From IMG/VR virus record IMGVR_UViG_3300028835_000233, positions 1-43,576 of that record: a stretch of 43,576 bases of DNA; one strand, given 5' to 3'. This document shows positions 8,779 to 43,576 of the stretch, piece by piece (position 1 is the stretch's first letter; every line of letters starts with the position of its first letter). The notes beneath the pieces were generated by a model. It worked only from the letters and a program-made list of their open reading frames with translations. It was not told the origin of the DNA and did not search any database. The position numbers were made by a program, and so were the translations under genes. This stretch comes from a virus.

Positions 8779-8807
8779 TTGACACCGGGCCATTGGTCCG
8801 GTATCGT
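8779..8807 (+). promoter_or_regulatory. Promoter of the rightward accessory operon, with operator-like palindrome in the spacer
   Basis: TTGACA (8779-8784) and TATCGT (8802-8807) are separated by exactly 17 bases. The spacer, CCGGGCCATTGGTCCGG, is a near-perfect inverted repeat, so a repressor bound there would block RNA polymerase. A similar half site CCGGTCC lies upstream at 8763-8769. Transcription would start near 8814, about 28 bases before the first gene. Confidence 0.65.
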
Positions 8808-8841
8808 CGGAGACGATTTTCACAACTTGGACGGCAAACCC

Positions 8842-8979
8842 ATGACAGCACACGACTACATCACCCTACTCGGCGGCACATTCTGGCTGGCCATTCTGGT
8901 CATCCGGCAGGCCGTCGCCTACCGCAGTGTGATCCGATCACACCGCACCCACAGCAGCGAGGAGAGAAGCCATGACTAA
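8842..8979 (+). CDS. Small 45-residue membrane protein, first gene of the accessory operon
   Basis: I chose the ATG at 8842 because it lies just behind the promoter and a GGACGG-type ribosome site whose context (GGCAAACCCATGAC) recurs at the 9470 start. The protein, MTAHDYITLLGGTFWLAILV onward, has one hydrophobic span followed by an Arg/His/Ser-rich tail. It overlaps the next gene by eight bases. Function unknown. In-frame starts further upstream would begin before the promoter and are rejected. Confidence 0.55.
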   Translation: MTAHDYITLLGGTFWLAILVIRQAVAYRSVIRSHRTHSSEERSHD

Positions 8980-9400
8980 TGGCCTACACGTTTCAGTCCA
9001 CGGTACGGACTGCACGGCGCACGGCGTCACATCAGGCCGCAAGTACGTCACCCTGATCGGTGACGGCATTGCCGGCGTATTCGAGCCGGGCGATGACGCC
9101 CCGGCGATCTTTCTGGAATATGACCTTGAGCCCAAGGGCGCAGCAGCCGGGCAGCTCAGTGTGGCAACGCCTGAGTGGCTGGCCAAGGTCGCCAACGGCA
9201 AGGGCACCCGCAGCCCTTACGAGTGCTTGGAATCCGACTGGGCCAGCAGGCACCGGATTGTCCGAGTGGTAGGGCGGCCAGTCGATGCTGACGGCAACCC
9301 AAGGCGCGGCGGGATGTTTGGCGGTCACTACATCAGCACCAGTGACAGCCGTTTCCCGGTGACTTCACCGATCCCGGTACACGACCGCTTTGAGCGGTAA
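8972..9400 (+). CDS. Hypothetical protein of the accessory operon
   Basis: A 142-residue protein with a good GAGGAGAG ribosome site. It starts MTNGLHVSVHGTDCTAHGVT and has a mixed, soluble composition with several glycines and a late NPRRGGMFGGHYIS stretch. No family or catalytic motif is recognised. Its stop is followed at once by the first copy of the two-hairpin RNA element. Confidence 0.65.
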   Translation: MTNGLHVSVHGTDCTAHGVTSGRKYVTLIGDGIAGVFEPGDDAPAIFLEYDLEPKGAAAGQLSVATPEWLAKVANGKGTRSPYECLESDWASRHRIVRVVGRPVDADGNPRRGGMFGGHYISTSDSRFPVTSPIPVHDRFER

Positions 9401-9407
9401 TTCACGG

Positions 9408-9444
9408 GCTGCCGTGTCAGAGACGGCAGCACGGGACTTATCCC
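9408..9444 (+). ncRNA. Two-hairpin leader element, copy A
   Basis: Hairpin 1: GCTGCCGT (9408-9415) pairs with ACGGCAGC (9423-9430) around the loop GTCAGAG. Hairpin 2: GGGA (9433-9436) pairs with TCCC (9441-9444). It lies between a stop and the GGAGGG ribosome site of the next gene. Copies B and C (10827, 13808) share the layout with different but still paired stem bases. A cis-acting RNA (riboswitch-like, protein-bound or processing site) is inferred. Confidence 0.6.
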
Positions 9445-9469
9445 AAACGTCACAATGGAGGGCAAACCC

Positions 9470-9877
9470 ATGACGACAACAAAACGACAAGCACCGTGGA
9501 GCATCAGCGAGAACGCCGCGCTGGTATCGCTCTACTTCGACATGCTCGACAGCGCCCTGATCGGTGCGGCCTACAACAAGGCCGAGATGATCCGGCTGGC
9601 ACGGCATGAATACGAGCCGACACCCGGCAGCGATGTCATTTTCACCGGCTCGATGCCTGACTGGGCTTGCTGCCTGCAGGACCGCAGCAAGGGCAGCATC
9701 GAGGCCAAGCTGATGAATGCCAGCGCAGCGCACCGCGATGTCAGCGCTGAGTCAGGCGGCAACGCCACGACAATGGACGGCTACGGCTACCGCTGCCTGA
9801 GCAACTACCAAGCCACGCTCAAGGTCGCCATGACCGCAGGGCTCAAGGCTCGCGAGCTGCAGGGGCAAGTGGCATGA
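9470..9877 (+). CDS. Protein with a nuclease-associated N-terminal-type domain (RSKGSIE motif)
   Basis: A 135-residue protein; the ATG at 9470 is preferred over 9455, which lies inside the ribosome site. It begins with WSISENAALVSLYFDMLDSA and contains RSKGSIEAKLMNASAAHRDV, then a GYGYRCLSNYQATL stretch. This pattern resembles the small domain often found N-terminal in HNH and other restriction-type endonucleases (RS-x-GS-E-K-x-x-N with a later GY-x-x-x-x-NYQ). Here it stands alone, without any catalytic domain. It may be a DNA-binding or anti-restriction component. The resemblance is from memory. Confidence 0.55.
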   Translation: MTTTKRQAPWSISENAALVSLYFDMLDSALIGAAYNKAEMIRLARHEYEPTPGSDVIFTGSMPDWACCLQDRSKGSIEAKLMNASAAHRDVSAESGGNATTMDGYGYRCLSNYQATLKVAMTAGLKARELQGQVA

Positions 9878-10815
9878 CTGTCATAGCCCTGCCGCAGCTC
9901 GATGTCACCCGGCTGGCCGCAGATTATTCTGCGGCTGTCCGGGAGTCGCTGACTGACTCCCAGATGCTCAACGTCAGAAACGGTGACGCCGTCGCTGACG
10001 ACTACGACGATACCAGCGAGATGCTTGCGGAGGCATTCCACAAGCAGATGCCGGGCGCCGATCTTGAGCACTACGGCGATGACATTGTGATCGCCGCCGA
10101 GCGCGCCGAGGCTTCCGGCTACCGGCTGAGCCGTGTACTGGTAGCCTGCGAATTCTCAGGGACCGTGAGAGACGCCCTGACGGCTCGCGGCCATTCAGCC
10201 ATGTCCTGCGACATGCTGCCCACCGATACACCGGGACAGCACCATCAGGGCGATGTCAGGGAGATTCTGGGCGATGGCTTCGACATGATGATCGCTCACC
10301 CGCCCTGCACCTATCTCGCCGCCAGCCAGCTATGGCGCTGCCAGCCAAAGCATGACAAGGATTTCCCGGCACGGCAGCAGGCCAGTGACGAGGCGCTCGA
10401 ATTCGTGCGCGACCTGATGGCCGCACCGATCCCACGGCAGGCCATCGAGAACCCGGTCAGCCGTATCGGCACCGCCATCCGGCCAGCCAGTCAGTATGTG
10501 CAGCCGTACCAGTTTGGCCATGACGCCAGCAAGAACACCGGCCTATGGCTTGAGAACCTGCCGCTGCTGCCCGTGCCGCATGAGTCCGAATGGATCCCGC
10601 CGCGCATGGTCCGGTATCAGGGCAAGCTGGTAAAACGGTGGGCCAATCAGAGCGCCTGCGGCGCCGACAACAAGAGCCCCGGCCCTGATCGCTGGAAGCT
10701 GCGCAGCAAGACATTCCAAGGCATAGCCGACGCGATGGCCGACACTTGGGGCGGCATCAGTCAGGCCGTCACCCCGGCACCGGTCAGGGAGGCCGCACAG
10801 CTCGCGCTGTTCTGA
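9874..10815 (+). CDS. DNA cytosine methyltransferase-like protein
   Basis: A 313-residue protein with a C5-cytosine methyltransferase core from about residue 85: motif I VLVACEFSGTVRDAL (88-102) for S-adenosylmethionine, motif IV HPPCTYL with the Pro-Cys catalytic pair at 144-145, and IENPVS (191-196) in the place of the ENV motif. The target-recognition region is very short for the family. The first 80 residues are an extra domain of unknown role. It probably modifies phage DNA or counters host restriction; a changed reaction is possible. It overlaps the previous gene by four bases. Confidence 0.75.
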   Translation: MTVIALPQLDVTRLAADYSAAVRESLTDSQMLNVRNGDAVADDYDDTSEMLAEAFHKQMPGADLEHYGDDIVIAAERAEASGYRLSRVLVACEFSGTVRDALTARGHSAMSCDMLPTDTPGQHHQGDVREILGDGFDMMIAHPPCTYLAASQLWRCQPKHDKDFPARQQASDEALEFVRDLMAAPIPRQAIENPVSRIGTAIRPASQYVQPYQFGHDASKNTGLWLENLPLLPVPHESEWIPPRMVRYQGKLVKRWANQSACGADNKSPGPDRWKLRSKTFQGIADAMADTWGGISQAVTPAPVREAAQLALF

Positions 10816-10826
10816 GTGCTTCACAG

Positions 10827-10866
10827 GCTGCCCGGTGGAGGGCGGGCAGCATGGGACGCATTCCCA
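10827..10866 (+). ncRNA. Two-hairpin leader element, copy B
   Basis: GCTGCCCG (10827-10834) pairs with CGGGCAGC (10843-10850) around an 8-base loop. TGGGA (10852-10856) and TCCCA (10862-10866) form the second hairpin. CTACGAGGATAT and the ATG at 10885 follow. Same architecture and place as copies A and C, with a different loop. Confidence 0.6.
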
Positions 10867-10884
10867 CAACTACGAGGATATGAC

Positions 10885-11238
10885 ATGACCACAGACACAC
10901 AGAAATTTGAGGCCGCAATCGCGCACCACTGCGATGGCCTGCACATCGCGACCGGCACAGCAGCCTGCTGCTCGGAGTGCCTGAGCGAGAATGACATCGA
11001 GGATACGGGCGACATTGACGCCATGCAGGAGGAGCTCTACGCCATCCCTGACGAGGGCAATTTCAGCAGCGCCCAGTGCGATAGCTGCGGCAGCAACCTA
11101 GCCGGCGACCGGCACACGGCGCACGGCTGGCGGCAGGAGGAGAAGCTCGACAGCGACAGCAACCTGTACCACTTGACCATTTGCGTGGACTGCCTGCTAT
11201 TTCACGCGAATGGCGACCTGCCCGAGACATGGCAATGA
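10885..11238 (+). CDS. Small zinc-ribbon protein
   Basis: A 117-residue protein beginning MTTDTQKFEAAIAHHCDG. The start was chosen for its TACGAGG ribosome site; the longer frame would run through the leader hairpins. It has ACCSEC, CDSCGS and ICVDCL cysteine pairs, suggesting one or two zinc sites. It couples by ATGA to the first PP-loop enzyme, so it may work with it, as zinc or iron-sulfur partners often do. This is an inference from the neighbourhood; no named family. Confidence 0.6.
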   Translation: MTTDTQKFEAAIAHHCDGLHIATGTAACCSECLSENDIEDTGDIDAMQEELYAIPDEGNFSSAQCDSCGSNLAGDRHTAHGWRQEEKLDSDSNLYHLTICVDCLLFHANGDLPETWQ

Positions 11239-12083
11239 GCACCAGCAAGAGAAACGGGCGACAGATCGGCGGCCAAGGCCAGGGTACAGCCGCCGAGATC
11301 CAGCGGCTACTCAATGCCGGCGCCCACTTTTACCACTCGATGTCAGGCGGCAAGGATTCGCTGGCCAGCTACGCGCTGCTATGCGACACGGTGCCGAGTG
11401 ATCGGATCACCGTAGTCCACGCCAATCTGGGCGAGGTCGAATGGGACGGCATTATCGAGCATATCGAGGCCAACATCAGCCACCCGCTGACGGTAGTCTC
11501 GGCAGTGTTCAAGGATGGCAGCCCTAAGACCTTTCTGGAAATGGTGCGGCGCCGGCACCAGTCGCGACCTGATAGCCCGTGCTGGCCGAGCCCGAAATAT
11601 CGGACCTGCACCAGCGACCTGAAAGTGGCGCCAATAGACAAATTCATCAAGGCCGACATGAAACGGCGCGGCATCAAGCTGGCCGTCAATGTCATGGGCC
11701 TGCGGGCCGAGGAGTCCGAGAGCCGAGCCGGCAAGGATCCGCTGACACTCAATGCCCGATTCACTACCAAGACACTGGGCCGCGAGGTTTACGACTGGCT
11801 GCCCATTCACGACTGGCCCGAGGCCCGAGTATTCGAGGCCGTCGAGGCGGCCGGCATGAAACAGCACCACGCCTATGCCGATGGCAACCAACGGCTGAGC
11901 TGCCAGTTCTGCATCATGGGCTGCCCCGGCGACCTGCAGAATGCAGCGCGCCAGCACCCCGAGCTCGCACAGCAATATATCGACATGGAGCAGGAGACTG
12001 GTTTCACGATGTTCGCAAGCGGATCACTGGCCGAGAAGCTGGTCACGGCGCCGGCTGGCCCGCAGCAAAGGGAGCTATTCTGA
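11235..12083 (+). CDS. PP-loop enzyme 1, PAPS-reductase / DndC-like
   Basis: A 282-residue adenosine-nucleotide PP-loop enzyme. SGGKDS is at residues 37-42. Downstream come YRTCTSDLKVAPIDKFI, GLRAEESESRAG and the cysteine motif SCQFCIMGCPGDL, a layout of the phosphoadenosine phosphosulfate reductase superfamily that includes DndC of phosphorothioate DNA modification. The conserved cysteines could hold an iron-sulfur cluster. It activates a substrate by adenylation or transfers sulfur; the target is unknown. The start at 11235 overlaps the previous stop (ATGA); ATG 11229 is also possible. Confidence 0.8.
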   Translation: MSTSKRNGRQIGGQGQGTAAEIQRLLNAGAHFYHSMSGGKDSLASYALLCDTVPSDRITVVHANLGEVEWDGIIEHIEANISHPLTVVSAVFKDGSPKTFLEMVRRRHQSRPDSPCWPSPKYRTCTSDLKVAPIDKFIKADMKRRGIKLAVNVMGLRAEESESRAGKDPLTLNARFTTKTLGREVYDWLPIHDWPEARVFEAVEAAGMKQHHAYADGNQRLSCQFCIMGCPGDLQNAARQHPELAQQYIDMEQETGFTMFASGSLAEKLVTAPAGPQQRELF

Positions 12084-13081
12084 TGGAGCAGTTCAACCTA
12101 TTTCGCAAAGCCGGCGCCATCGAGCTGCCTGATGTGCCGCTGATTGTGGCCTACGGCGGTGGCGTCGATTCGACCGCCATGCTCATAGCATTGTGGCGGG
12201 CCGGGATCCGGCCGGATGTAATCACGTTCGCAGATGTCGGCGCCGAGAAGCCCGAGACTTACGAGACGGTGCGCCGCATGAATGACTGGTGCATCAGCGT
12301 AGGCTTTCCGGCGATCACGATTGTCAAACTCAATACGATGGCCACCACGCCCTACGACAACATCGAGGGCAATCAGACCGCTAACGAGACGCTGCCGAGT
12401 ATGGCCTTTGGCAAAAAGGGCTGCAGCGTGAAGTGGAAGCATGTCCCGCAGGACTACTACATCACGGGAGTCGGCGGGCAGGTCAATAACTGCGAGCCGC
12501 ACCCGATATGGCTCGAATGCCAGGCCAAGGGCATCAAGCCGTGCAAGCTGCTCGGATTCGACGCCGGCCCGGCCGACATCCGGCGCACCAGCAAAACCGA
12601 GGATAAGAATTTCACGTATTGCTACCCGCTGCAGATGCTCGGCTGGCAACGCGGTGACTGCATTGCCGCCATCATCGAGGAGGGGCTGCCCGTGCCGATT
12701 AAGAGCGCGTGTTTTTTCTGCCCCGCCAGCCAAAAGTGGGAACTGTGGTGGCTGGCCGGCAAGCACCCGGACCTGCTAGAGCGGGCCCTTGAGATGGAGC
12801 ACATCGCCATGCTCGGCAAGCACAGCCGATGGGGCAGCGATGAATGCACCTATGGCAAAGACTGGGAGGAATTTGTAAACAAGCCGGCCGATCAGTGGCC
12901 GACTACATCGATCACGGTAGGCCTCGGCCGCTCATTCGCTTGGAACCACTGGGCGAGAGTGAACGGGGTCTGCACTGAAAATGGCAAGGTCATCGCGGAT
13001 CCTGAGCGGTACTTGGCCAAGGCAGCAGAGCTCAAGGGCGACGGTGGCAACGCCGCCGACGCCGTGAGGCCCTGCGTTTAA
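12083..13081 (+). CDS. PP-loop enzyme 2, PAPS-reductase-like
   Basis: A 332-residue second PP-loop protein with IVAYGGGVDST (GGGVDS at 25-30). It also has GCSVKWKHVP in the middle and SACFFCPASQKWELWWL as a Cys-x2-Cys motif near residue 213. It lacks the GLRAEES motif of its neighbour, so the two are distant relatives, not a recent duplication. The start overlaps the previous stop (TGATG), implying linked expression and perhaps a two-enzyme complex. Related genes in other phages are annotated only as PAPS reductase family. A role in DNA or RNA thiolation or in making a modified base is inferred. Confidence 0.78.
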   Translation: MEQFNLFRKAGAIELPDVPLIVAYGGGVDSTAMLIALWRAGIRPDVITFADVGAEKPETYETVRRMNDWCISVGFPAITIVKLNTMATTPYDNIEGNQTANETLPSMAFGKKGCSVKWKHVPQDYYITGVGGQVNNCEPHPIWLECQAKGIKPCKLLGFDAGPADIRRTSKTEDKNFTYCYPLQMLGWQRGDCIAAIIEEGLPVPIKSACFFCPASQKWELWWLAGKHPDLLERALEMEHIAMLGKHSRWGSDECTYGKDWEEFVNKPADQWPTTSITVGLGRSFAWNHWARVNGVCTENGKVIADPERYLAKAAELKGDGGNAADAVRPCV

Positions 13082-13096
13082 CTACGAGGTAATGAC

Positions 13097-13597
13097 ATGA
13101 ATATCGAGAACCAAAACTATGACCCGCTGATTGTGAATCACAGCAACGGCGACAAACCGAGGGCCGACATCCCGATCAAGGATATTAAGATCCCGGATTG
13201 CTGGCACGTTTCAATGCGGGCCCATGATGCCGGCGACCACAACGGCAAGCGCGCCATTCTGGACTGCTGGCACTTGGCGCACGATCTCCACGACAAGCTG
13301 CTGCGACTGGGCGAGCAACCGGCGCGCATGAACCGGCTCATTGATGCCGGCTACGGCGCCAGCGATGCGCAGCGCATTGTGGACATTCTCGACGGCACGG
13401 CCAAGCAGGCCGAGGTCGAGGAGCAGAATCAGGCGCACGGCAAGCACCCGGATCAGGGATACATCGAGGCCGCGAAAGCTGGCAAGTACAGCAGCGAGAT
13501 CGAAGTGGACGAGGGCGCCAAGGTATCGCACGGCGACGAGCCGGGCGCTTACGTGCAGGCCTGGGTGTGGATCCCTGACGAGGAGGCTGCGCCATGA
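13097..13597 (+). CDS. Hypothetical protein
   Basis: A 166-residue soluble protein, MNIENQNYDPLIVNHSNGDK onward, with a helical middle (RAILDCWHLAHDLHDKLLRL) and an acidic C-terminus (WVWIPDEEAAP). It follows the second PP-loop gene by 15 bases with an ACTACGAGG ribosome site like other genes of this operon. No family is recognised. Confidence 0.65.
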   Translation: MNIENQNYDPLIVNHSNGDKPRADIPIKDIKIPDCWHVSMRAHDAGDHNGKRAILDCWHLAHDLHDKLLRLGEQPARMNRLIDAGYGASDAQRIVDILDGTAKQAEVEEQNQAHGKHPDQGYIEAAKAGKYSSEIEVDEGAKVSHGDEPGAYVQAWVWIPDEEAAP

Positions 13598-13800
13598 ACT
13601 GCCCCGAGTGCGGAAGCAGCGACACATACGAGCAGGAGCTCAGGCCACCGATGCCGGGCACCAAGGCATACCAGTGCGTCGAATGCGAGGCCGCATGGCT
13701 GAGCGATGACGGCCAGAAAGCCGAGGCCGTCGCCAGCGGCGAGGATCGGCGGCGATTCAGGGCCCGCATGGATCAGGCCACTGGCGACCTATTCGGGTGA
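13594..13800 (+). CDS. Small zinc-ribbon protein
   Basis: A 68-residue protein starting MNCPECGSSDTYEQE with a second YQCVECEAAW pair, a complete CxxC...CxxC zinc ribbon. A basic helix follows (EDRRRFRARMDQATGDLFG). It overlaps the previous stop by ATGA. Such proteins often bind nucleic acid or partner proteins; here the partner is unknown. The stop at 13800 is directly followed by copy C of the RNA element. Confidence 0.65.
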   Translation: MNCPECGSSDTYEQELRPPMPGTKAYQCVECEAAWLSDDGQKAEAVASGEDRRRFRARMDQATGDLFG

Positions 13801-13807
13801 CGCACGG

Positions 13808-13844
13808 GCAGCCGGGTCAGAGGCGGCTGCACGGGAATCATCCC
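13808..13844 (+). ncRNA. Two-hairpin leader element, copy C
   Basis: GCAGCCG (13808-13814) pairs with CGGCTGC (13824-13830); the loop holds GTCAGAG as in copy A. GGGA (13833-13836) pairs with TCCC (13841-13844), followed by ACTACGAGG. The third base pair is A-T here and T-A in copies A and B, a compensatory change that supports an RNA fold. Confidence 0.62.
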
Positions 13845-13862
13845 ACTACGAGGAGAACAATC

Positions 13863-14756
13863 ATGAGAGAGTTAAACGAGTACCAAAAACGGTGTAATGC
13901 CGAGGCGGTGCAGTTCCATGAGCTGCTGCAGCCTATCGTGGATCAGATGCCCGAGGGCTGGAGTCTCAAGCCGATCCACATAGACGACGAGGGCCACGCA
14001 TGGCGCTGCCAGTACATCAAGAACGTCGCCACCGGGCTGGAAATTATGGTCCGATACAACGAGTATGATATTCGCGGCAAGTTTGAATTCACGGCGATCC
14101 AATGGCCCGAGTACACCGACGAGAACGGCCACAAGGGCACCAGCGACCCGAGTAACTGCTACAACCCACGGGAGCACAGGCCGAGCACCAAGGCCACCGC
14201 CGGCCGTGAGCCCAAGGCCATCGCCAAGCAGATCGAGAGCAAGATAATCCCGGAGTATGAGCGCATATATGAGCGCTGCCAGGGCCTCGCTGCTGACTCG
14301 CAGAAGTACCACGACGCCACCGCCGAGGCGCTCAAGCAGTTGACCGAGGCCACTGGCGACGACCGGCACAGCGCCGGGAACAGGCGCTCAGGCTGGTATC
14401 TGCAGGACTATCCCGGATCGCAGAGCGTGGAGTTCAATTCTGTGGGCGATGTCAGGATCCGGCTGTCGGTTGCCGACATGCTCGATGTGATCGACATGCT
14501 GTACCGCAAGCACACCGGCAAGCGGCGCACCGCTCAATGGTTCAGCGCTTGCCCAGAGTGCGGCTGCACAGATGTCGAGGTCGGCGCTTGGGTAGTTGAC
14601 AACACTGAGGAGGTCGCCGGCACCGGGCAGGAGGGCGCGAGCGATAGGGCATGGTGCCCGCAGTGCGAGCATGATGGCAATGACGGCAGCATGGACGGCT
14701 GCAGATACCTGACGACGAGCGAGGAGCGCAAACCATTCACAGAGGAGGGCGCATGA
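13863..14756 (+). CDS. Hypothetical protein with a C-terminal zinc ribbon
   Basis: A 297-residue protein beginning MRELNEYQKRCNAEAVQFHE; the start has an AGGAG site and lies after the hairpin element. A mixed N-terminal domain is followed by a helical stretch (residues 115-175) and a C-terminal zinc ribbon (ACPECGCTDVEV and WCPQCEHD). No family is recognised. It may contact nucleic acid. The overlap with the next small gene (ATGA) suggests co-translation. Confidence 0.65.
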   Translation: MRELNEYQKRCNAEAVQFHELLQPIVDQMPEGWSLKPIHIDDEGHAWRCQYIKNVATGLEIMVRYNEYDIRGKFEFTAIQWPEYTDENGHKGTSDPSNCYNPREHRPSTKATAGREPKAIAKQIESKIIPEYERIYERCQGLAADSQKYHDATAEALKQLTEATGDDRHSAGNRRSGWYLQDYPGSQSVEFNSVGDVRIRLSVADMLDVIDMLYRKHTGKRRTAQWFSACPECGCTDVEVGAWVVDNTEEVAGTGQEGASDRAWCPQCEHDGNDGSMDGCRYLTTSEERKPFTEEGA

Positions 14757-14944
14757 TGTACGTATATGTACTTAGCGAGCGCTGGCTGGATCTTGACCAG
14801 CAACAGCGCGAGCTGTTCACGGTCGGATTCTATAAACCGGACGGCAGTTTTGAGTCCGAATCAGATCACGGCAGCAAAGAGCTGGCAGCGGCCAGGGTTC
14901 ACTACCTGAATGGCGGCACCGGGCCGCAGGTAATCGAGCCGTGA
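14753..14944 (+). CDS. Small hypothetical protein
   Basis: A 63-residue protein, MMYVYVLSERWLDLDQQQRE onward, ending in HYLNGGTGPQVIEP. The ATGA overlap upstream and GTGA overlap downstream place it in the same coupled string. It appears to be a small mixed alpha/beta domain. Function not recognised. Confidence 0.6.
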   Translation: MMYVYVLSERWLDLDQQQRELFTVGFYKPDGSFESESDHGSKELAAARVHYLNGGTGPQVIEP

Positions 14945-15210
14945 GCCGGCGCATCAAAAGACGGTCCCGCTATCCGGGCTGGAAGGTATTCAATCCGGCC
15001 GGCGAGTATGTGGCGGCCTGCCATTATGCCGAGGATGCGGCTGCGCTAGTCGCATCCTATGGCAATGGCGCCACGATCCGGTGGAACCGCAAAACCGGCC
15101 CACTGGTCTGGACTGATGGCAGCGACGGATCGGCGGGCGACAGTTATGACTACTGCGCACTGGTCTGCAATAGGCGGCTGGACAAGGCCGCCGAGGAGGG
15201 CAAGCATTGA
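14941..15210 (+). CDS. Small hypothetical protein (GTG start)
   Basis: An 89-residue protein with a basic N-terminus (MSRRIKRRSRYPGWKVFNPA), then AAALVASYGNGATIRWNRKT. The GTG overlaps the previous stop. Mixed composition and two late cysteines; no known family. Confidence 0.55.
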   Translation: MSRRIKRRSRYPGWKVFNPAGEYVAACHYAEDAAALVASYGNGATIRWNRKTGPLVWTDGSDGSAGDSYDYCALVCNRRLDKAAEEGKH

Positions 15211-15404
15211 AACCTGACGCATCAAGATATGACCCGCGACCTGAGTACCTTGCCGAGCTGATCGGCTCGACAGGGCTCACTCAGGCCGTGCTGGCGGCGA
15301 GGATTGGAGTGGACGAGCGAACCATCCGGCGCTGGCTATCCGGCCAGCGCCAATTCAACTACCGGGATCAGTTTGCTATCGAGTGCCTAGTGCTATCGGT
15401 GTGA
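15207..15404 (+). CDS. XRE-type helix-turn-helix regulator (TTG start)
   Basis: A 65-residue protein; LTQAVLAARIGVDERTIRRW is a classic Cro/XRE helix-turn-helix. The TTG start overlaps the preceding TGA, so its output should be low and tied to upstream translation. It is the last gene of the rightward accessory operon and the only classic DNA-binding regulator in it. It is therefore a candidate to bind the palindrome in the 8779-8807 promoter; that link is inferred. Its 3' end overlaps a convergent gene by 37 bases. Confidence 0.7.
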   Translation: MKPDASRYDPRPEYLAELIGSTGLTQAVLAARIGVDERTIRRWLSGQRQFNYRDQFAIECLVLSV

Positions 15405-34074: not shown

Positions 34075-37000
34075 CTACTCGCCCCTTACGCCTGTGAGCC
34101 ACTCGTAGAATTCGACCTCGTCCTCGGCCCAGTAAGCATCCAGCAGGCGGTTTGTCTGGCTGCTCGGATAGTGGAACAGGGTGCCTCCAACATTGTTGAG
34201 ATTCTTGAGCAGGGCCTCATCGACCTCGCCCTGCTGGATCTGCTGCCCGAGCGTGTAGATGTCATCGCCCAGTGAACCGATTGCCGTGTTGCCGCCACCG
34301 AATCGGGCCGCCGGGATCTCGCGCACGAACGGGATACCTGACACCGCGGAATCGACAGTCGCCTTGGCCACCCACCAGCCCCATCCCTCATCGTCATCCT
34401 CATCCGGCCACTGGTCGTAGATGATGGCAGCGGCGATGCCCTCCATCGTGTAGAGCAGCATCAGGTCAGTGGCGAAATATACGGCGCCCTTGAGTGTCGG
34501 CCTGCGCTTTAATGCGACCCCCTTCTCGTAGGCGATGTTGCTCTTGGCCAGCATGTAGGAGATCAGGGTCGTCCAGATCCGTATGAATTGCGACTGCCGG
34601 TTTTTCTTGGTGCCGGTCGTGCCGCGCTCGAGGCCCGAGCGATCCGAATAGAAGCCTGACGTTTGTGCATTCTCGACCTGCACATCAGCGTAGATGATCG
34701 CGTCAGCATCCGACAGATTCTTGACGTTGCGGCCTTTCCAGTAAGCACCGAGCCAGGTCGTCACATCGACTAGCGACTGAGCCTTGGCAATCGGATAGAA
34801 AAAAGTAGCCGAGGCTGCTTTCGACCACGTTTTCAGTCTCGTCGGAGCGGCGCCAAAGACTGAATTGAGATGCGCCTGCGTGTCCAGTACGTCCTTGTCG
34901 AATGCGGTCGAATCGATGTAGCGCGTGTGCATAAAGGCCGACTGCTCCATGACGAATTTATACATCTTGACCGGATTCTGCAGGAATTTACCGAGGCCCA
35001 TGCCGTAGGCCTGTGATCCGATCACAGCGATAGTCTGGAAAATGCCCGTGAACTGCAGCAGCGTGGTCATCAGGTTCCAGCCGAGCTTGGCCTTGACGAA
35101 CCCGGTGCGGATCCACGCCACGCTTTGCTCGACCACGCCCTCGGCCGGGAGCTCGCCCACAGCAGCATCGGTCAGCCACAGATTCAGCGCCTCGAGCGCC
35201 GTGTCGTTGCCGGTGTTGTTGAAGGCCGCCCGTATTTCCTTGTCATTCAGCAGGCGCTTGATGAAATTGACCTCGTCGCCAATGGAGATGTCGCGCACCA
35301 CTTCGCGCAGATGCAGGTCGATGGTATGCAGGCCGAGCCGTACCACCATGCCGTGATTCTGCACCCGCTCGAATGTCGAGCCGGATCTGGTTTGCGCCGT
35401 GATAAACACGCCGTTGCCCATTTTCTTGTAGAGATCCTGCAGCTCCACATCCTTGACGCGCTCGGAGTGCCGGCGGTCATACGCCAGCGGATAGTAGCCG
35501 CCCTTAGCCGTGAGCTCCTGCCCATCTCTGCCCTTGAATGTGAACGGCAAGGCTTCCACTTTCTGCGGTGCGATACCGCGGCGACGTTGCTCGGCCTCAC
35601 TGAGCGCTGGCCAGTAGGAATCGAGGTATGCCCAGATGTCATTGATGAAATCCACATCGCGGGCATCGAGGGTCTGCAGCACTGCCTGTATGCCCTGCTC
35701 GGTATAAGCCGGCGAGCCGTCGCGCTTGATACCACCGAGCATCGCTGCGCGATTGCCGGCGTTGCCCCAGTTCAGCGCGATTGAAAGCAGGTCAGCCTTG
35801 GACAGACTCTCGCCCATCGCTTCCACGTATCGCTTCTTGTGCATGTCACCGAGCTCGGACTTGCTGTAGTGCTTGAGGTACAGATCCGAGACATCCTTTT
35901 GGGCCTTCTTGAGCCCCGGTATCAGCTTTTCAGCATAGGCCCTGCGGATCGGCACGATGACCCTGCGCGTGAGCGCTCCGAATCCTGACTGATCGAGCAC
36001 CCGTGCGATGGAGCTGGCGCGCAGCCAGGCCATGACGCCCTGCTTGAGCGAGCGCTTACCCTTATCGCTGAGTGAGGGCTCGCTGACGCCGGCCGGCACA
36101 AATTTATTATTCTCGAGGATCTGATCGGCTACCTCATTGACCGCATCCTGCAGCAGTACCTTCTCGCCATTGAGTACGCCCTCGGCCAGCGTCTTGGCCT
36201 TGTGCTCGAGCTGGCGCACGATGTCGCGCATGTCGCGGAATTCGTCAACCGTCAGGTCTTTCCAGTTGGTGCCCATGTCGCGCAGTTTGTTCAGGGTGGC
36301 GGGCGGCACTACCAGCCGGCCATCCTCAACAGCCTGCAGCATCTCTGCCATAGCAGCATTGCGATCTACCTGCGCCAGTGACACGGTGCGGAAGTCAATA
36401 CCCTCGATGACAGCGAGTATCTGATCCAGCATCCCGGACTTGCCGAGCCGTTGCTGCACCGTCTTTGACTCGAATTTCTTGAGGTATTTCTGTGTCCTGC
36501 CTGACTCCTCCTTGGCCCGAGTCGCAGCCCGGAACAGCTCATGATTCCTGATCTGCTTGAGCTTCTCCTGATAGGCGGTCTGATAGTCACCCTTGGCCGC
36601 AGCATTGAACGCCTTGCGGCCAGCCTTCTGTTCCGCGATCCGGTATTTATTCGGATTCACAGCCCGGATGCGCATGGCGTCGATCTCGTCCCTGACCAGC
36701 TTTTTGATAATCGCGAGCTCGCCACGATTGGGCAGCATCCCGGCATTGGCCGCCCTTGCTTCTCGGTCAGTTCTGGCGCTCTCACGGCTCACTGCTGAGA
36801 CGATCTTTTTATCTTGGCGCATCTGCTTGCGCAGGGATCGCAGCTCGGCAGCGAGTAGCTGAGCGCGCTTCTCGTTATGCACGACAGTCACCGCATCGGC
36901 GGCCAGGGTGCCATCGACCAGCGGATCCGGGAAACGCTCGCGCATGCGCAAATCAGTCTCGGCCTCGATGACAGCGTCCATCTTGCCGACGCGCATCATC

Positions 37001-40000
37001 TCCTGAATCATCTCATCAGCACTGGAGAATCCGAATATCGCGGCAGCGACATCGGCATCGACACCGCGCTTGATGGTGTAAACCCACGGCTTCGGCAGGC
37101 CCTTGATGAATTCCTTGCCGTAGCGCCTTATCAGGTCATCCTTGCCGAGCTTGAAAATAGCGCGATCCGGCGTGGTGCCATCGGGATTCTCACCGCGCTG
37201 GAACATGGCCAGCGCCCGGTACACCGGTTGCGCCCATACCTCTGCCTGTACCTCGGCCAGCACCTTCTCGCGCTCTGACTGCCACCACACCTTAGCCTCG
37301 CGCTCGAGATACGCGAGCATTTTCTTGGCCTCTTTGTCGAAAGCATCCTGATGCGCTCGGGAGATCAGATCCTTGTAAACCTCGAATCGCTCCTGACTGA
37401 CACCCATCTCCTCGGCGCTCGAGTAAAGCGGCCGGAATTCCTGTGTGTTTTCAGCAGATGTGATCGCCTCATCCGTTGCCAGCATGCGATCCATGACGCC
37501 CCGGATCTCGTCATTCATATCAAAGCCAGCGTAGAGCACCAGCTTGGCGTAAATCTTGGTCAACCACTGGGCGAATGCAGCGAAAACACCCTGCAGATCA
37601 GCAGACGGCGCCTTGCCTTCTGCCAGATAACGCTCGAATGCCCTCGCCCACTTCTCATGGTGCTCGCGGGTGATTTCCCGGCGGCTGTTGACCTCGAGGA
37701 ATTCAAGTATTTTCTGGTAGTCGGCAATGACCTGACGCGGGCCAGTAGCCTGCTCAGCGAGATCGCCCATGATCTCGAGATACAGATGGCCAGACTCATG
37801 CAGGAACGTGGACAGATTGCTGGCCTTGCCCAGTCGGATGACGGCACGATTGTCGGCATCGAACGTGATCGAGCCCCGGTGCTTATCCTGAAACAAGGTC
37901 ATCCCAAGCATCGCCATTTCGCGAACTTTGGGAGTGATGTCCAGGGCATGCACTTTCGGGCCGGGCACTTGCTGAGCCTCGGCCTGCTTGATTGTCTCAA
38001 CGTGATTATCGAAATTCTGGCGGTGGAAAGTAGCCTGCTCATGCTGGCCCAGATCCCTCGCCTGACTGAATGAATCCCACGCCATGTTTGCGAGGCGTCT
38101 GGCGTCGAGGAGCCGCTCAAGCTGCGCCGCTGCATCCGGCAGCTCTTGGCCTTTCCACTTGACCTCGGCCTCGGGATCGAGCTTGCGCGCAGCCCTATTG
38201 GTCATATTGACGAGTGTCTTATCGTAGAAATTCAGCATCTTGGTGCCACGGGTAGTCGTGACATGCAGCCCCATACCCTCCAACTTCGGCAGGCTGTCGA
38301 AATCCTCGTACAGATCATTTTCCAGCCACTCAGCCATGTACTCGCGGTTTTTCGAGACGAGGATATTGCCGTTGCGGTCACGCCTGTACTCGCCATTGAT
38401 GTCGATGGCGACAAACAGATCGCCGGCCTCGGCTTCATTCTTGAGAAACTCCGAGGCAGCTTGCTCACCCTTGTCGTAGAGGAGCTGGATAAGATCCTGA
38501 TTCGCGCTGAATTCTATGTAGTCGATGAATGACGGATTTTCGTTGACGATGTCAGATTCCACGCCACCTATAACGTCATAGCGATTGGCATGCTCACTGA
38601 CCTGATCCTGTATTTTTTGGAGATTCTCCGCGCCGATGTAATCGGAGAGAGACTGGTCATCCATAGGCCCGTGATCGAGCTCGGTGCCTTGCGCATCGTA
38701 GGTGTAAACATCTGCATTCCGAGGGTCGTACACGATCTTGTCGATGTCCTGCACAAAATTGCTGCGGGTGTTGATGATGTCGCCCGTTGACCATGCGAGC
38801 TGATCGTAGCCTTGCTCGGCCGCCAGCCTGATAGCGCGCTTCATGGCCAGCGTGACCCACGCATTGCCGCGGAACGGGCCGGCAGGAACGCTCGACAGGT
38901 TCGCTGCTACGGCTTCCTGATGCAGGGTGCTCAGGTGATTGGTGAGGTAATCCCTTGCCGCCACCTGCGAGCGCAGCGTGTCGTCAACCGGGGATTTATC
39001 CATAGCCCCGTAACCGACCACACCCTTGCCGACTGCGATCTCACGCGGCTGGCCACTTTGCAGCTTGCCGTATGAGATCGGTTCCCTGGTAGCAGGATCG
39101 ACTGCTACCCACTGCATCTCAGTCTCCTCGACCTCGAATGCCGGAATATCCGGCACTGGCATGGCATAGCCAAAGCGCTTGCCGCGCTGGTGCCAGTCAG
39201 ATTGGACCTCCTCGAGGAACAGGATGCGCTCACCATTCGGGCCTATGCGATCAGTCGCCAAGAAAAAGGCGATGATATTTTTCTCGTCATGGTGGCCGGC
39301 TTCAAAATCGACCCACTGGAATGGCCTGCCCTCCGGTGGCACCGGTGGCATGTGCAGGATGACCTCGCGGAAATTGGTGCCGCCGTCGATCTGCTGGCCG
39401 ACATTCTCTGCAACCCGGTCGAATTCGACCCCGCCGCTATTCTTGAAGATGTACGCCTCAATCGCATCCTCGGCATGCACCCGTGTCTGCTCGTTGATCG
39501 GCGCATCGATCTCGAGCCATGTCATGCCGTCATCAGGAGTTACCGCGACATTGCCGGCGTCCATATCCTCGATAATCTGGAACGTGAAATCACTGTGAAA
39601 ATCGCTGACATCCCAGATGGCATTGCGGCTGTAGAGGTACTCATCCTCGTAGATGTCCTCCATGCCGTATTTTTCAAAAGCCTCGAAATCGCTATTGATG
39701 GTTACGGTCAGCTCAGGCTGCGGGACGAATTCCCCGCCGAGCTGTGTCTCGACCACTTCAATGCCATTGGCCATGATGTAGGCGACGAGCTCATCCTTTG
39801 TGAGCTGCTCATCGCCCTTGGCTTCAATGAATCCCGGCACATCGAGCGCCTCGAGCTCGAGGCTTGAGGCACCGGGCATTTTCCGCAGGCGGCCGAGCAT
39901 GTCCTTGGCCGGCGCCTGCTCGAGATCCAGTGCCCTGGCGGCATTCAAAAGCCCGGATGTAAAGCCGATCTCTGACTGGAACAGGGTGCGCTCGCCGGCC

Positions 40001-43000
40001 TGACTGAGCTGCTGCTGCAGCTCATTGGTTGCATTGGTGCGATTCTGGCGGCCCTCTCTGCCGAGCTGATATTCTTTGTAAACAATGCCATGTTTGGCGA
40101 GGATCGCCCGTGTAGCAGGGCTGGCGTCCATCGGAATGACCGCCCCTGAGAACTCACTCAAGTCCACCGCTCGCTGCGGCTTGGCCTCGAAATACGGCAC
40201 CGGCGCCTGCACAAAAGCAGCAATCGCATCTAAGCCCTGCTCGATTATGTGGTCAGGAAACGGGCCCTCGAATCCGGCGCGGGTCAGGCCAGCCTTGAGC
40301 GCCTGAGCATCAGTTCCCTTGTACCCCGGACGGTTGAAGTTTTGCACCGTGTAGGCCATCGCCTCGCGAGCTGCATCAGTGGAATGGTCGTAGATGCTGT
40401 CAGCGGAAATGAATGGCCACCAGCCGGCCATCTCTGTTGTCCACGAAAACACCATGCGCTGCGCTGCCTCGCGAGCTGTATCTACCTCGTCGGGTGTGCC
40501 GATCTGCTCAATCGCCCGCCGTCTGGCCTCGGGCATGCTCTTGATTCTGGCAGCCGCCTTAGCCCTGAGCATGCCCTCGCTCGGGAAAAAGTCCTCGGTG
40601 CCCCTGAGCTTGCCCTTCATTTTGCGCACGATATTGGCCAGCGTGTAGGGCTCCCACCGGCCGCTGATCTTGATGCGCGGATCACCCATGCGGCTCCTTA
40701 TTTTGCGCTCGGCCCATATCTTGTAATCATTCTCGGCACGGAGCGCCTGAATCCTGCCGTCGAGGTAGGTCTGAGTGTCAACGTCATTGATGTTCTGGCT
40801 GCCCTTGCGCTCCACATCGCGCTTGAGCCGGTCGTAAACCGAGATCACAAGGCTGCCATCCTCATTCATGATGCCGGCGCGATGGATGAAATCTGTCGCA
40901 CGGGCATAAATTCGCTCAGCTCGCGCAGCCTCCTCGAGTGGCCCGGCCTCTGCAGGAATCTTGGGCTCCCTGCCAATGAAATACTCACGGATTGCATTCC
41001 TGACCGCCTCGCCAGCTTTTCTCATGTGCCGCTGGCGCGACAGGTGCTCCCACTCGAGATTTTCAGCGCTGAGATCGCCGGCAAAGAATTTCAGGATCCG
41101 CGGCGACCAGCCCCACACGTAGCCCGGCCGCACATCATCGAGCCTCGCCTGCGGAGTATCGTTATAGACCTCCTTCAGAAACCACGCCTTAGAGGTATTG
41201 TCAGTCAGCATGTGCTGGATCAGGCGGTCAGGATCCGGGTGCCGGCGCATGTGCTCCCACAGGAAATCGGGCAGGCCGCTGTATTTCGAGCCGCCGATAG
41301 CCTTGGCAATATCCTCGACCTCCGCGAGCAGCTCAGTCACGATGTCATGCGCCGAGGGCTTGTAATTCGCTTTAGGAAATCTGACTGCGTAGGCATCAGC
41401 ATCGAATAGCGGAACCTGCTGCGGATCCCCGAGCTCGCGAGTACCGATCAGGGTGATCTCACCAAAGCCCTGGATGTCCTTGCCCTCGGGCATAACTGCA
41501 ATGGACGGCACGGCAAGGCCACCGAGCTTGTCGGAGAATTCCAGATTCTCGGAAGTCAGGTTATGGAGCGCCTGCAGCTTGGGCTCTTGTGACTGGTAAA
41601 ACGTAGTGCCACTCACCGGCGGCCGGCGGCCGAAGTCCGAGACAGTCTGGATCTCGCCGGTGCCACCCTCTCGAATGAAATGATCGAGGATTCTGAATTC
41701 ATTGGCATTGGCCCAGAAGCCCATATTTTCGGTGATCGCAGGATCATCGGCCTTGGTGAAAACCATAGCCGCGCCACCGCCGAGCTCGCTGAATGCCTGC
41801 AGTAATCGCTGGTGGCCTCGAGTAGTTTTGAGGGACCGCATCTGATCGGGGTCCATCGACAGATAGCCCAGTGGCCTGTGGCGGTTATCCAAGATCAGGA
41901 CGCCATCAGGCGGGTCCATCTCGGTCAGCAGCGCCTTCACTTCTGTTGGACCGTGGAGTGTATCGAGCTCATCGACACGCGCCCGCAGGATGCGCTCGGT
42001 GATAGGCACCTCCATGCGTCTGGGCAGTGGCTTGAATGGCCTTGCCATGCCGATTGCCCTGCCATCTGGGCCGAGCTCACTGTATCCGGCAGCGCCACTG
42101 CCGATCACAACATGCCCGGCGACGGTGACATCCGTATTCTCGAGCGTAGTCGTGAGCTTTTGCGTAATCATCTCATCTGCCTGAGATGGCTGTGCGACAC
42201 CTGATGGATGATTGTGCGCAAACCAGACCTTAGTGGCGCCCGGAGTGGTTAGAATGGCGCCGGCCATAACGCTCGGATAGACGCTGGTGCCGTCATACGT
42301 GCCCTTGGAGTGGCGCACGACACTGAGGACTCGATTATTCTGATCCAGTACCAGTGCCCACATACCCTCCTGAGCCTGCCGGCGAATCGACGCCATGACA
42401 TGCGCAGCATCGTCGGCATTGTTGACGACATTCAGCCCGGTCGGCAGGGTGCCAGTCTCCTCCTGCCTGACCCGCACCTTGTAATTTGCTACGGCCTCAA
42501 CGGCCTTCTGTGACTGGGGCACATCGGCATCAGCAAACAAGTCGCCCTGATCGCGCCCTGGCGGCCTGATCGGCTCCATGATGATGTAATTGCCACGCTG
42601 ATCTCGGGCCTCGTTGCGACGTTCCCCGTGGAACACTGTGCGGATCCGATCATCGATGTTGCGATTCTGCTCATCCAGAGTGCGCAGTCTGGCATGCAGC
42701 CCGTGGGCTTTATCCCGCAGTGCCGTGAAACTTTTAACCAGTTCCATTGGTGTGTTGCCCTTGAGGCCCAGTCGGCCGGCTTGCAGCATCGGGCGCTGGT
42801 CAGGGTCAAACAGCATCGGGCTCAATATGGCCGCCAAATGCTGATCGTTGTCGATGTCGATATCCTCGGCAACAAAAAAGCCACGCCTACTGGGATACTC
42901 AGCTACAAAATTCTCGATGGCTTCGATGTCCTGTAGCTGCTCCGTTACCTCACCCATCTTGCGCTGGACCGCGGCGCGCTCCACCTGCAGCTTTTCGAGA

Positions 43001-43236
43001 TTGCGCATCTGAATCTCTCGGGCATCGACCAGAGCATTCGGACGCCGCTGGATCTCGCCGCCAGCAAGCTGCACCTTGGAAACGATATCGAGGAGCTCCT
43101 GATTCGATTCGCGGAGCGTGAGCCTGACGGCCTCGACTGGCGTGATGCCCGCTAAGATATGGGATTCAATGAGCTGGCGGTCAGCCTTGCTGATCGCTCT
43201 CCCTAACTTCCTGAAACAGTCCCTTATGCTCGCCAT
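34075..43236 (-). CDS. Giant polyvalent protein (3053 residues), probable internal virion / ejected protein
   Basis: The start at 43236 (MASIRDCFRKLGRAIS) avoids overlap with the gene before it. Visible parts in order: N-terminal helices; a RadC/JAB-like domain near residues 260-400 with HNHPSG at about 340; a domain around 1010-1060 (AKPQRAVDLSEFSGAV); a block near 1340 (ILFLEEVQSDWHQRG) typical of large polyvalent protein-associated domains; a zincin-like HESGH at about 1815; long helical regions (1980-2300); and hydrophobic helices near 2720-2745 and 2925-2945. This is the polyvalent-protein type described for phages and conjugative elements, thought to travel with DNA into the host. It uses over a fifth of the window. 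Confidence 0.82.
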   Translation of the reverse strand: MASIRDCFRKLGRAISKADRQLIESHILAGITPVEAVRLTLRESNQELLDIVSKVQLAGGEIQRRPNALVDAREIQMRNLEKLQVERAAVQRKMGEVTEQLQDIEAIENFVAEYPSRRGFFVAEDIDIDNDQHLAAILSPMLFDPDQRPMLQAGRLGLKGNTPMELVKSFTALRDKAHGLHARLRTLDEQNRNIDDRIRTVFHGERRNEARDQRGNYIIMEPIRPPGRDQGDLFADADVPQSQKAVEAVANYKVRVRQEETGTLPTGLNVVNNADDAAHVMASIRRQAQEGMWALVLDQNNRVLSVVRHSKGTYDGTSVYPSVMAGAILTTPGATKVWFAHNHPSGVAQPSQADEMITQKLTTTLENTDVTVAGHVVIGSGAAGYSELGPDGRAIGMARPFKPLPRRMEVPITERILRARVDELDTLHGPTEVKALLTEMDPPDGVLILDNRHRPLGYLSMDPDQMRSLKTTRGHQRLLQAFSELGGGAAMVFTKADDPAITENMGFWANANEFRILDHFIREGGTGEIQTVSDFGRRPPVSGTTFYQSQEPKLQALHNLTSENLEFSDKLGGLAVPSIAVMPEGKDIQGFGEITLIGTRELGDPQQVPLFDADAYAVRFPKANYKPSAHDIVTELLAEVEDIAKAIGGSKYSGLPDFLWEHMRRHPDPDRLIQHMLTDNTSKAWFLKEVYNDTPQARLDDVRPGYVWGWSPRILKFFAGDLSAENLEWEHLSRQRHMRKAGEAVRNAIREYFIGREPKIPAEAGPLEEAARAERIYARATDFIHRAGIMNEDGSLVISVYDRLKRDVERKGSQNINDVDTQTYLDGRIQALRAENDYKIWAERKIRSRMGDPRIKISGRWEPYTLANIVRKMKGKLRGTEDFFPSEGMLRAKAAARIKSMPEARRRAIEQIGTPDEVDTAREAAQRMVFSWTTEMAGWWPFISADSIYDHSTDAAREAMAYTVQNFNRPGYKGTDAQALKAGLTRAGFEGPFPDHIIEQGLDAIAAFVQAPVPYFEAKPQRAVDLSEFSGAVIPMDASPATRAILAKHGIVYKEYQLGREGRQNRTNATNELQQQLSQAGERTLFQSEIGFTSGLLNAARALDLEQAPAKDMLGRLRKMPGASSLELEALDVPGFIEAKGDEQLTKDELVAYIMANGIEVVETQLGGEFVPQPELTVTINSDFEAFEKYGMEDIYEDEYLYSRNAIWDVSDFHSDFTFQIIEDMDAGNVAVTPDDGMTWLEIDAPINEQTRVHAEDAIEAYIFKNSGGVEFDRVAENVGQQIDGGTNFREVILHMPPVPPEGRPFQWVDFEAGHHDEKNIIAFFLATDRIGPNGERILFLEEVQSDWHQRGKRFGYAMPVPDIPAFEVEETEMQWVAVDPATREPISYGKLQSGQPREIAVGKGVVGYGAMDKSPVDDTLRSQVAARDYLTNHLSTLHQEAVAANLSSVPAGPFRGNAWVTLAMKRAIRLAAEQGYDQLAWSTGDIINTRSNFVQDIDKIVYDPRNADVYTYDAQGTELDHGPMDDQSLSDYIGAENLQKIQDQVSEHANRYDVIGGVESDIVNENPSFIDYIEFSANQDLIQLLYDKGEQAASEFLKNEAEAGDLFVAIDINGEYRRDRNGNILVSKNREYMAEWLENDLYEDFDSLPKLEGMGLHVTTTRGTKMLNFYDKTLVNMTNRAARKLDPEAEVKWKGQELPDAAAQLERLLDARRLANMAWDSFSQARDLGQHEQATFHRQNFDNHVETIKQAEAQQVPGPKVHALDITPKVREMAMLGMTLFQDKHRGSITFDADNRAVIRLGKASNLSTFLHESGHLYLEIMGDLAEQATGPRQVIADYQKILEFLEVNSRREITREHHEKWARAFERYLAEGKAPSADLQGVFAAFAQWLTKIYAKLVLYAGFDMNDEIRGVMDRMLATDEAITSAENTQEFRPLYSSAEEMGVSQERFEVYKDLISRAHQDAFDKEAKKMLAYLEREAKVWWQSEREKVLAEVQAEVWAQPVYRALAMFQRGENPDGTTPDRAIFKLGKDDLIRRYGKEFIKGLPKPWVYTIKRGVDADVAAAIFGFSSADEMIQEMMRVGKMDAVIEAETDLRMRERFPDPLVDGTLAADAVTVVHNEKRAQLLAAELRSLRKQMRQDKKIVSAVSRESARTDREARAANAGMLPNRGELAIIKKLVRDEIDAMRIRAVNPNKYRIAEQKAGRKAFNAAAKGDYQTAYQEKLKQIRNHELFRAATRAKEESGRTQKYLKKFESKTVQQRLGKSGMLDQILAVIEGIDFRTVSLAQVDRNAAMAEMLQAVEDGRLVVPPATLNKLRDMGTNWKDLTVDEFRDMRDIVRQLEHKAKTLAEGVLNGEKVLLQDAVNEVADQILENNKFVPAGVSEPSLSDKGKRSLKQGVMAWLRASSIARVLDQSGFGALTRRVIVPIRRAYAEKLIPGLKKAQKDVSDLYLKHYSKSELGDMHKKRYVEAMGESLSKADLLSIALNWGNAGNRAAMLGGIKRDGSPAYTEQGIQAVLQTLDARDVDFINDIWAYLDSYWPALSEAEQRRRGIAPQKVEALPFTFKGRDGQELTAKGGYYPLAYDRRHSERVKDVELQDLYKKMGNGVFITAQTRSGSTFERVQNHGMVVRLGLHTIDLHLREVVRDISIGDEVNFIKRLLNDKEIRAAFNNTGNDTALEALNLWLTDAAVGELPAEGVVEQSVAWIRTGFVKAKLGWNLMTTLLQFTGIFQTIAVIGSQAYGMGLGKFLQNPVKMYKFVMEQSAFMHTRYIDSTAFDKDVLDTQAHLNSVFGAAPTRLKTWSKAASATFFYPIAKAQSLVDVTTWLGAYWKGRNVKNLSDADAIIYADVQVENAQTSGFYSDRSGLERGTTGTKKNRQSQFIRIWTTLISYMLAKSNIAYEKGVALKRRPTLKGAVYFATDLMLLYTMEGIAAAIIYDQWPDEDDDEGWGWWVAKATVDSAVSGIPFVREIPAARFGGGNTAIGSLGDDIYTLGQQIQQGEVDEALLKNLNNVGGTLFHYPSSQTNRLLDAYWAEDEVEFYEWLTGVRGE

Positions 43237-43237
43237 G

Positions 43238-43576
43238 TCAATCCAAATCTTCAAACATCGCGTGAGTGGCGGCGATGACTATAGCAAGGATGTCATCGTC
43301 ATCTACCTCGAGTGCCTCGCGGTACTGCTCCTCGCGACTCTTGGCCCTTTCCATATCAGTGGTCGGCGGTATCGAGATGACATTGCCCTGCGATGTCGGC
43401 TTTTTGATCGACGGTGAGCCACTGGCCTTGATGATCCTGCGAGCTGTGCCGGCAGACGTAGGCTTGGTGATCTCAGGCGTCCCGGTCGCCGTGATCTTGC
43501 GTATCGCGGAGCCTGCCGCCGTGGGCTTGGTGATCGACGGTGTGCCGGTCGCCGTGACAATGCGCCGAGCTGCACC
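43238..43576 (-). CDS. Repeat-containing virion-region protein, C-terminal 112 residues (cut by window edge)
   Basis: The visible end contains at least three tandem repeats of 21 residues with the pattern TATGTPxITKPTxAGxAxRxI, then an acidic C-terminus (EALEVDDDDILAIVIAA and MFEDLD). The repeat unit is 63 bases. The N-terminus lies beyond the window. Its place directly before the giant polyvalent protein suggests a virion or tail-related protein; the repeats look like a fibrous or linker region. Not recognised. Confidence 0.62.
   Translation of the reverse strand, partial: GAARRIVTATGTPSITKPTAAGSAIRKITATGTPEITKPTSAGTARRIIKASGSPSIKKPTSQGNVISIPPTTDMERAKSREEQYREALEVDDDDILAIVIAATHAMFEDLD

Follow-up and report, generated by a model that had tools for sequence, protein, structure and literature searches.

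A recurrent hairpin element between operon genes of an uncultivated BPP-1-like phage as a possible portable junction in polycistronic phage mRNA

What a repeated, RNA-like element does in front of three different genes of one phage operon is the question raised by the locus considered here. The window, i.e., the whole stretch of DNA analysed, comprises the 43,576 bases of an IMG/VR virus record. Its terminase has about 42% amino-acid identity to the terminases of Limnohabitans phage DC33 and Bordetella phage BPP-1, and a head-tail adaptor gene is also present; because of these two features the window phage is most likely an uncultivated BPP-1-like podovirus. Limnohabitans phage DC33 itself (GenBank PQ492659.1, L160 in our set) is filed as Inoviridae despite its 39 kb and a tailed-phage terminase, which is probably a misclassification. 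On the minus strand (34075-43254) the window encodes a 3059-aa protein with RadC and PBECR5 domains that resembles the large injected polyvalent proteins of podoviruses. Hairpin promoters of the N4-type virion RNA polymerase were considered in connection with this protein and dropped in view of its domains.

The window contains exactly three copies of the element (A, B and C), all in one plus-strand operon of small accessory genes. Between 8773 and 14944 adjacent genes overlap or are hardly separated; the exceptions are three gaps longer than 50 nt (54-69 nt), each of which contains one copy. Each copy separates a stop codon from the next gene's ribosome site, at the positions given in a preliminary description of this DNA, and the genes served are indeed different genes of one operon, as had been proposed there. 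The parts of the operon and of the copies are as follows.

8779-8807, plus strand: promoter-like site TTGACA-17-TATCGT at the operon head, with a similar site in six relatives
9396-9444, plus strand: copy A (covariance model, 76 bits; folding)
9396-9400/9438-9442, plus strand: outer stem of copy A, with the stop codon TAA (9398-9400) inside the stem
9408-9415/9423-9430, plus strand: inner stem of copy A, with the loop GTCAGAG at 9416-9422
9433-9436 (GGGA)/9441-9444 (TCCC), plus strand: competing local hairpin of copy A
9457-9472, plus strand: ribosome site GGAGGG and start codon ATG (9470-9472) after copy A, from sequence
10814-10865, plus strand: copy B (covariance model, 63.6 bits; folding)
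10814-10819/10858-10863, plus strand: outer stem of copy B; stop codon TGA at 10813-10815
10827-10834/10843-10850, plus strand: inner stem of copy B
10853-10856 (GGGA)/10862-10865 (TCCC), plus strand: competing hairpin of copy B
10874-10887, plus strand: ribosome site GAGG and start codon ATG (10885-10887) after copy B, from sequence
13796-13844, plus strand: copy C (covariance model, 75.8 bits; folding)
13796-13800/13838-13842, plus strand: outer stem of copy C; stop codon TGA at 13798-13800
13808-13814/13824-13830, plus strand: inner stem of copy C
13833-13836 (GGGA)/13841-13844 (TCCC), plus strand: competing hairpin of copy C
13850-13865, plus strand: ribosome site GAGGAG and start codon ATG (13863-13865) after copy C, from sequence

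Several other features of the operon were recorded. A dyad, CCGGGCC...GGTCCGG, lies between the hexamers of the promoter-like site (window 8779-8833) and is common to several relatives. The ATG near 8833, and not 8773, is probably the start of the first operon gene. The leader GGCAAACCCATGAC (window 8820-8846 and 9450-9474) precedes two different operon genes and the same genes in relatives. At 11229-13081 there are two adjoining overlapping genes, the first of which matches PAPS reductase; the second looks related (GGxDS-type motif, Cys residues) and has no Pfam match.

RNA folding gives one hairpin of about 50 nt as the minimum-energy structure of each copy, with z-scores against dinucleotide shuffles of -3.3 (A), -3.8 (B) and -3.1 (C). 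This extended hairpin starts at the stop codon, about 12 nt upstream of where the element had first been placed. From the inside out, a loop of 7-9 nt closed by a 7-8 bp inner stem is followed by a 2-bp step bounded by a G.A and an A.G mismatch, 1-2 pairs, a further mismatch and a 5-6 bp outer stem, whose 5' strand overlaps the upstream gene's stop codon. The GGGA-N4-TCCC stem shares bases with the extended hairpin, and the two are mutually exclusive; in the predicted folds the two-hairpin state lies on average 3.4 kcal/mol above the extended one. Masking the 5' arm, to mimic its occlusion by a ribosome at the stop codon, lets the local GGGA/UCCC hairpin form in 33 of 40 elements; this hairpin is kept in every copy compared.

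The preliminary description had folded the element as two separate hairpins. Its inner stem stands, together with the T-A/A-T swap at the third pair and the loop common to copies A and C, and GGGA...TCCC occurs in all three copies as stated. What does not hold is the GGGA-N4-TCCC stem as the second stem of the ground state: it represents a competing state, and two separate hairpins as the ground state were rejected on the minimum-energy fold and on the lack of double changes in that second stem.

Relatives of the window were obtained through a methyltransferase-like gene and a motif scan. The resulting type-1 set comprises 19 distinct copies from eight phage contigs (the window with the near-identical G001, G002, G003 with the near-identical G004, G005, G009, G010 and G011). 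Among these copies, 94.4% of the cells of the extended hairpin pair, and double compensatory changes occur at 8 of its 17 pairs. The covariation score of the extended hairpin is 0.308, compared with 0.129 +/- 0.015 after shuffling and at most 0.05 in slid versions. Under the two-hairpin model the covariation comes solely from the inner stem. In the GGGA/TCCC stem changes affect a single side, with zero double changes; the stem is conserved, its pairing is putative, and a protein could read these bases. The covariance model R1 scores the copies at 60-79 bits, and its other matches in 838 kb are the reverse strands of the copies themselves (up to 26 bits) and one marginal match. Thus, the further covarying copies in related phages on which the functional-RNA claim depended are present, and compensatory change in a structured element is upheld, with the covariation outside the inner stem belonging to the extended hairpin that includes the stop codon and not to the proposed second stem. 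The element is almost certainly a structured RNA.

Identity between copies is about 80% within and between genomes alike, and concerted evolution within a genome was accordingly not seen. The 49 pattern matches in host genome contigs look like GC-rich chance, and none has the shared ribosome-site layout. The methyltransferase gene also led to Rhizobium phage Pasto, which had no copy in the stretch searched.

More distant phages were found by alignment of the RSKGSIE protein, and their gene gaps carry elements with unrelated inner stems set in the same frame. Scanning 2.9 million viral contigs for the motif GAGTGA...GGGAATCATTCCC returned 12 stretches, 10 of which have the element in place, the exceptions (L188 and L190) being identical in sequence. 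In total, about 40 distinct elements were compared; the element lies on the coding strand of one operon, with 1-6 copies per contig. The divergent versions retain the outer stem, the core GGGAAUCAUUCCC, a start codon downstream and, at their 5' edge, the stop codon; several of them were found by exact motif, so this invariance is partly by construction and not independent evidence, and the independent sets are the type-1 copies and the loci reached through the protein. Both strands of the outer stem vary (GGUGA/UCAUC, GAUGU/ACAUC, GAGUGC/GCAUUC, GAGUCA/UGAUUC), and where an additional outer-stem pair appears or disappears, the two strands change in concert. In 39 of 41 elements the stop codon of an open frame falls between -7 and +3 nt of the point where the outer arm begins, and the start codon follows the element usually by 16-26 nt and by up to 43 nt.

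Two further scans added little. The pattern GTGAC...GGGGAATCATCCC gave nine matches, of which only L199, from the same contig as L166, was a real copy, and among the matches to GAGTGC...GGGACGCATTCCC only L208 was new and real. The L208 copy (57-110) has the GAGUGC/GCAUUC outer stem and lies on a 101-kb contig; therefore, the element may occur beyond small podoviruses. In one divergent group an extra hairpin, GGTCCCAATGCGGGACC, directly follows the element (L157, reverse complement, at about 9060 and 10090; L173 at 11555; L177 at 9251; L182 at 12424). The distant AT-rich phage L184 has seven intergenic repeats of another kind (10267-15321), with two competing hairpins before AGAGGG ribosome sites; in one example TTGATA pairs with TATCAA as against a local GATATC hairpin. 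These repeats possibly follow the same principle with an unrelated sequence.

Comparison across phages reveals that similarity repeatedly stops on one side of the element and that the element itself stays similar. Copy C and the G002_x copy have the upstream gene in common (93%) and not the downstream one; copy C and G010_C have the downstream gene in common (82%) and not the upstream one. Between copy C and G010_q, and between G010_C and G009_z, the element alone is common, at 100% over 50 nt. Gene-family maps contain single genes flanked by two elements (families f16, f18, f13 and f14), and in G003 and G005 the genes that flank the g8972-element A unit of the window adjoin directly. Neighbours are conserved across element boundaries in 12 of 34 comparisons and in 74 of 113 where there is no element, counts that come from few related genomes with hand-curated gene calls and do not amount to a formal test. 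The best reading of these patterns, which the preliminary description had missed, is that the element marks a mosaic or shuffling boundary of gene cassettes.

Several known systems resemble the element in part. The RNase III sites of T7 early mRNA are irregular hairpins of about two helical turns, located between early-operon genes just before ribosome sites. The element is likewise an irregular hairpin of about two turns between genes and just before a ribosome site, and it has the double strand of about 20 layers or more that marks an RNase III site (type 1 has 17 pairs and additional mismatches, and the other types are longer). Unlike the T7 sites, it has strong sequence conservation, a stop codon at the stem base and a competing second hairpin. 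Integron attC sites are imperfect hairpin repeats in one orientation between single-gene cassettes, with GTTRRRY/RYYYAAC core boxes. The element shares this arrangement and orientation; it differs in the ribosome site directly after it, and the GTTRRRY/RYYYAAC boxes are absent from copies A-C.

The closest layout is that of the ESAS repeats of cluster K mycobacteriophages (PMC12699233). As with ESAS, several copies per phage lie in one orientation (with rare exceptions in ESAS) in the gaps that precede the start codons of non-structural genes of different families, and an inverted repeat is followed by a ribosome-site motif, sometimes with the upstream stop codon inside. The inverted repeats of SAS/ESAS stand upstream of the start in gaps longer than about 50 nt, as do those in the 54-69 nt gaps here. 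The 13-bp SAS motif GGGATAGGAGCCC lies within a few nucleotides of the start codon in cluster K mycobacteriophages (PMC3203893); it is absent from copies A-C and their leaders. RNA pairing in ESAS is not supported according to its authors (PMC3203893), and its function is still open. Unlike ESAS, the present element has covarying pairing and a different consensus, and the phages are unrelated. In its shuffling role the element comes closest to the PeSL (promoter-early stem-loop) cassettes of T4-type phages, intergenic stem-loop repeats associated with gene shuffling (Arbiol 2010, Comeau 2014, as cited in PMC4503421), since it too borders gene shuffling between related phages. PeSL units have an early promoter beside the stem-loop; copies A-C have no promoter, have a ribosome site, and carry the stop codon built into the fold. 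The element lacks a defining feature of ESAS and of T4 PeSL alike. Rfam (release 15) gave no match above the gathering threshold in the window or five relatives, a permissive Rfam scan of the operon gave no match on an element, and no similar DNA was found in named phages. The element appears to be a previously undescribed portable linker.

The reading that fits best with the anatomy, about two helical turns of double strand that open at a stop codon into two hairpins, is a cis-acting RNA junction in the polycistronic phage mRNA, cut or opened between translation blocks, with each resulting end capped by a hairpin (probability of roughly 0.45). In the intact RNA the extended double strand would mark the border of two translation blocks. 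Either the ribosome terminating at the stop codon would open the outer stem or an RNase III-like enzyme would cut it, and the element would separate into two hairpins. With the inner hairpin capping the 3' end of the message upstream and the GGGA/UCCC hairpin capping the 5' end of the message downstream, just ahead of its ribosome site, each gene block would be insulated and translated from its own start. A block of this kind, insulated and self-starting, would work together with its element wherever recombination places it. Between nuclease processing and a purely ribosome-driven switch the balance is roughly equal. That the element affects message processing, or insulation and re-initiation of translation, rather than acting as an operator stands at about even odds. 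The element may be the 'control device' suggested from the sequence in the preliminary description. A more specific form can be put forward tentatively: a portable two-state RNA linker, of a class not yet described in phages, in which the terminating ribosome flips the long hairpin into two short ones and resets the expression of the next block.

The main alternative, doubtful overall, is a translational operator, by which a phage or host RNA-binding protein would read the A.G/G.A steps, the loop GUCAGAG and GGGAAUCAUUCCC and repress or activate the downstream block, with one regulator for several genes. Multiple copies per operon ahead of different genes agree with it. So does conservation beyond the needs of pairing: TCCC is invariant though its last bases are unpaired in the extended fold, the A.G and G.A mismatches are invariant, and the loop is conserved. 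RNase III substrates usually have no need for such conserved sequence, and on this point a protein-binding site fits better than the junction. Against the operator, the inner stem and loop differ wholly between element types, two of which occur in one phage (L157, L195), the ribosome site is left open in the predicted folds of copies B and C, and no candidate binding protein was identified. A DNA operator, whose dyads would be read by a dimeric DNA-binding protein as proposed for the ESAS repeats, is very unlikely. The whole element has dyad symmetry and its core GGGAATCATTCCC is a near-perfect palindrome; however, the non-Watson-Crick cells of type 1 comprise 19 G.U and only 3 A.C on the coding strand, where the copies lie, which argues for pairing in the coding-strand RNA. 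The coding strand also folds better than its complement in 32 of 40 elements, only one orientation was seen in the operons examined, and no promoter-like site was found at copies A, B and C.

An intrinsic terminator or attenuator between genes is hardly tenable: a GC-rich hairpin does lie downstream of a stop codon, but no T-run follows the stem at any of the three copies, no terminator-like site was found there, and a ribosome site and start codon come directly after it. A recombination border alone, i.e., a repeat of about 50 bp that supplies homology for single-gene exchange like the T4 PeSL units and has no role in expression, would account for the one-sided loss of homology at the element in most pairs, for identical elements between unrelated genes and for the neighbour counts. 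It is nevertheless distinctly unlikely, as compensatory stem changes indicate selected pairing where homology would favour sequence identity, and the position between stop and ribosome site is fixed. Shuffling is more likely a second property of the element than its whole function. The best reading remains a portable stop-hairpin-ribosome-site junction in polycistronic mRNA that doubles as a shuffling boundary.

Small genes come and go in phage early operons, and a question worth pursuing is how a newcomer comes to be correctly expressed where genes are so tightly packed. A junction with its own stop, fold and ribosome site, present with unrelated inner sequences in several phage groups and located at points of gene exchange, makes this question testable by simple reporters. 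If the two-state linker were true, the stop, the switch and the ribosome site would travel together, so that a gene dropped between two linkers would be correctly terminated and expressed, and the element would be an RNA-level counterpart of the integron cassette border. The junction itself offers synthetic operons a compact natural linker, and its covariance model could locate variable cargo regions in phage metagenomes.
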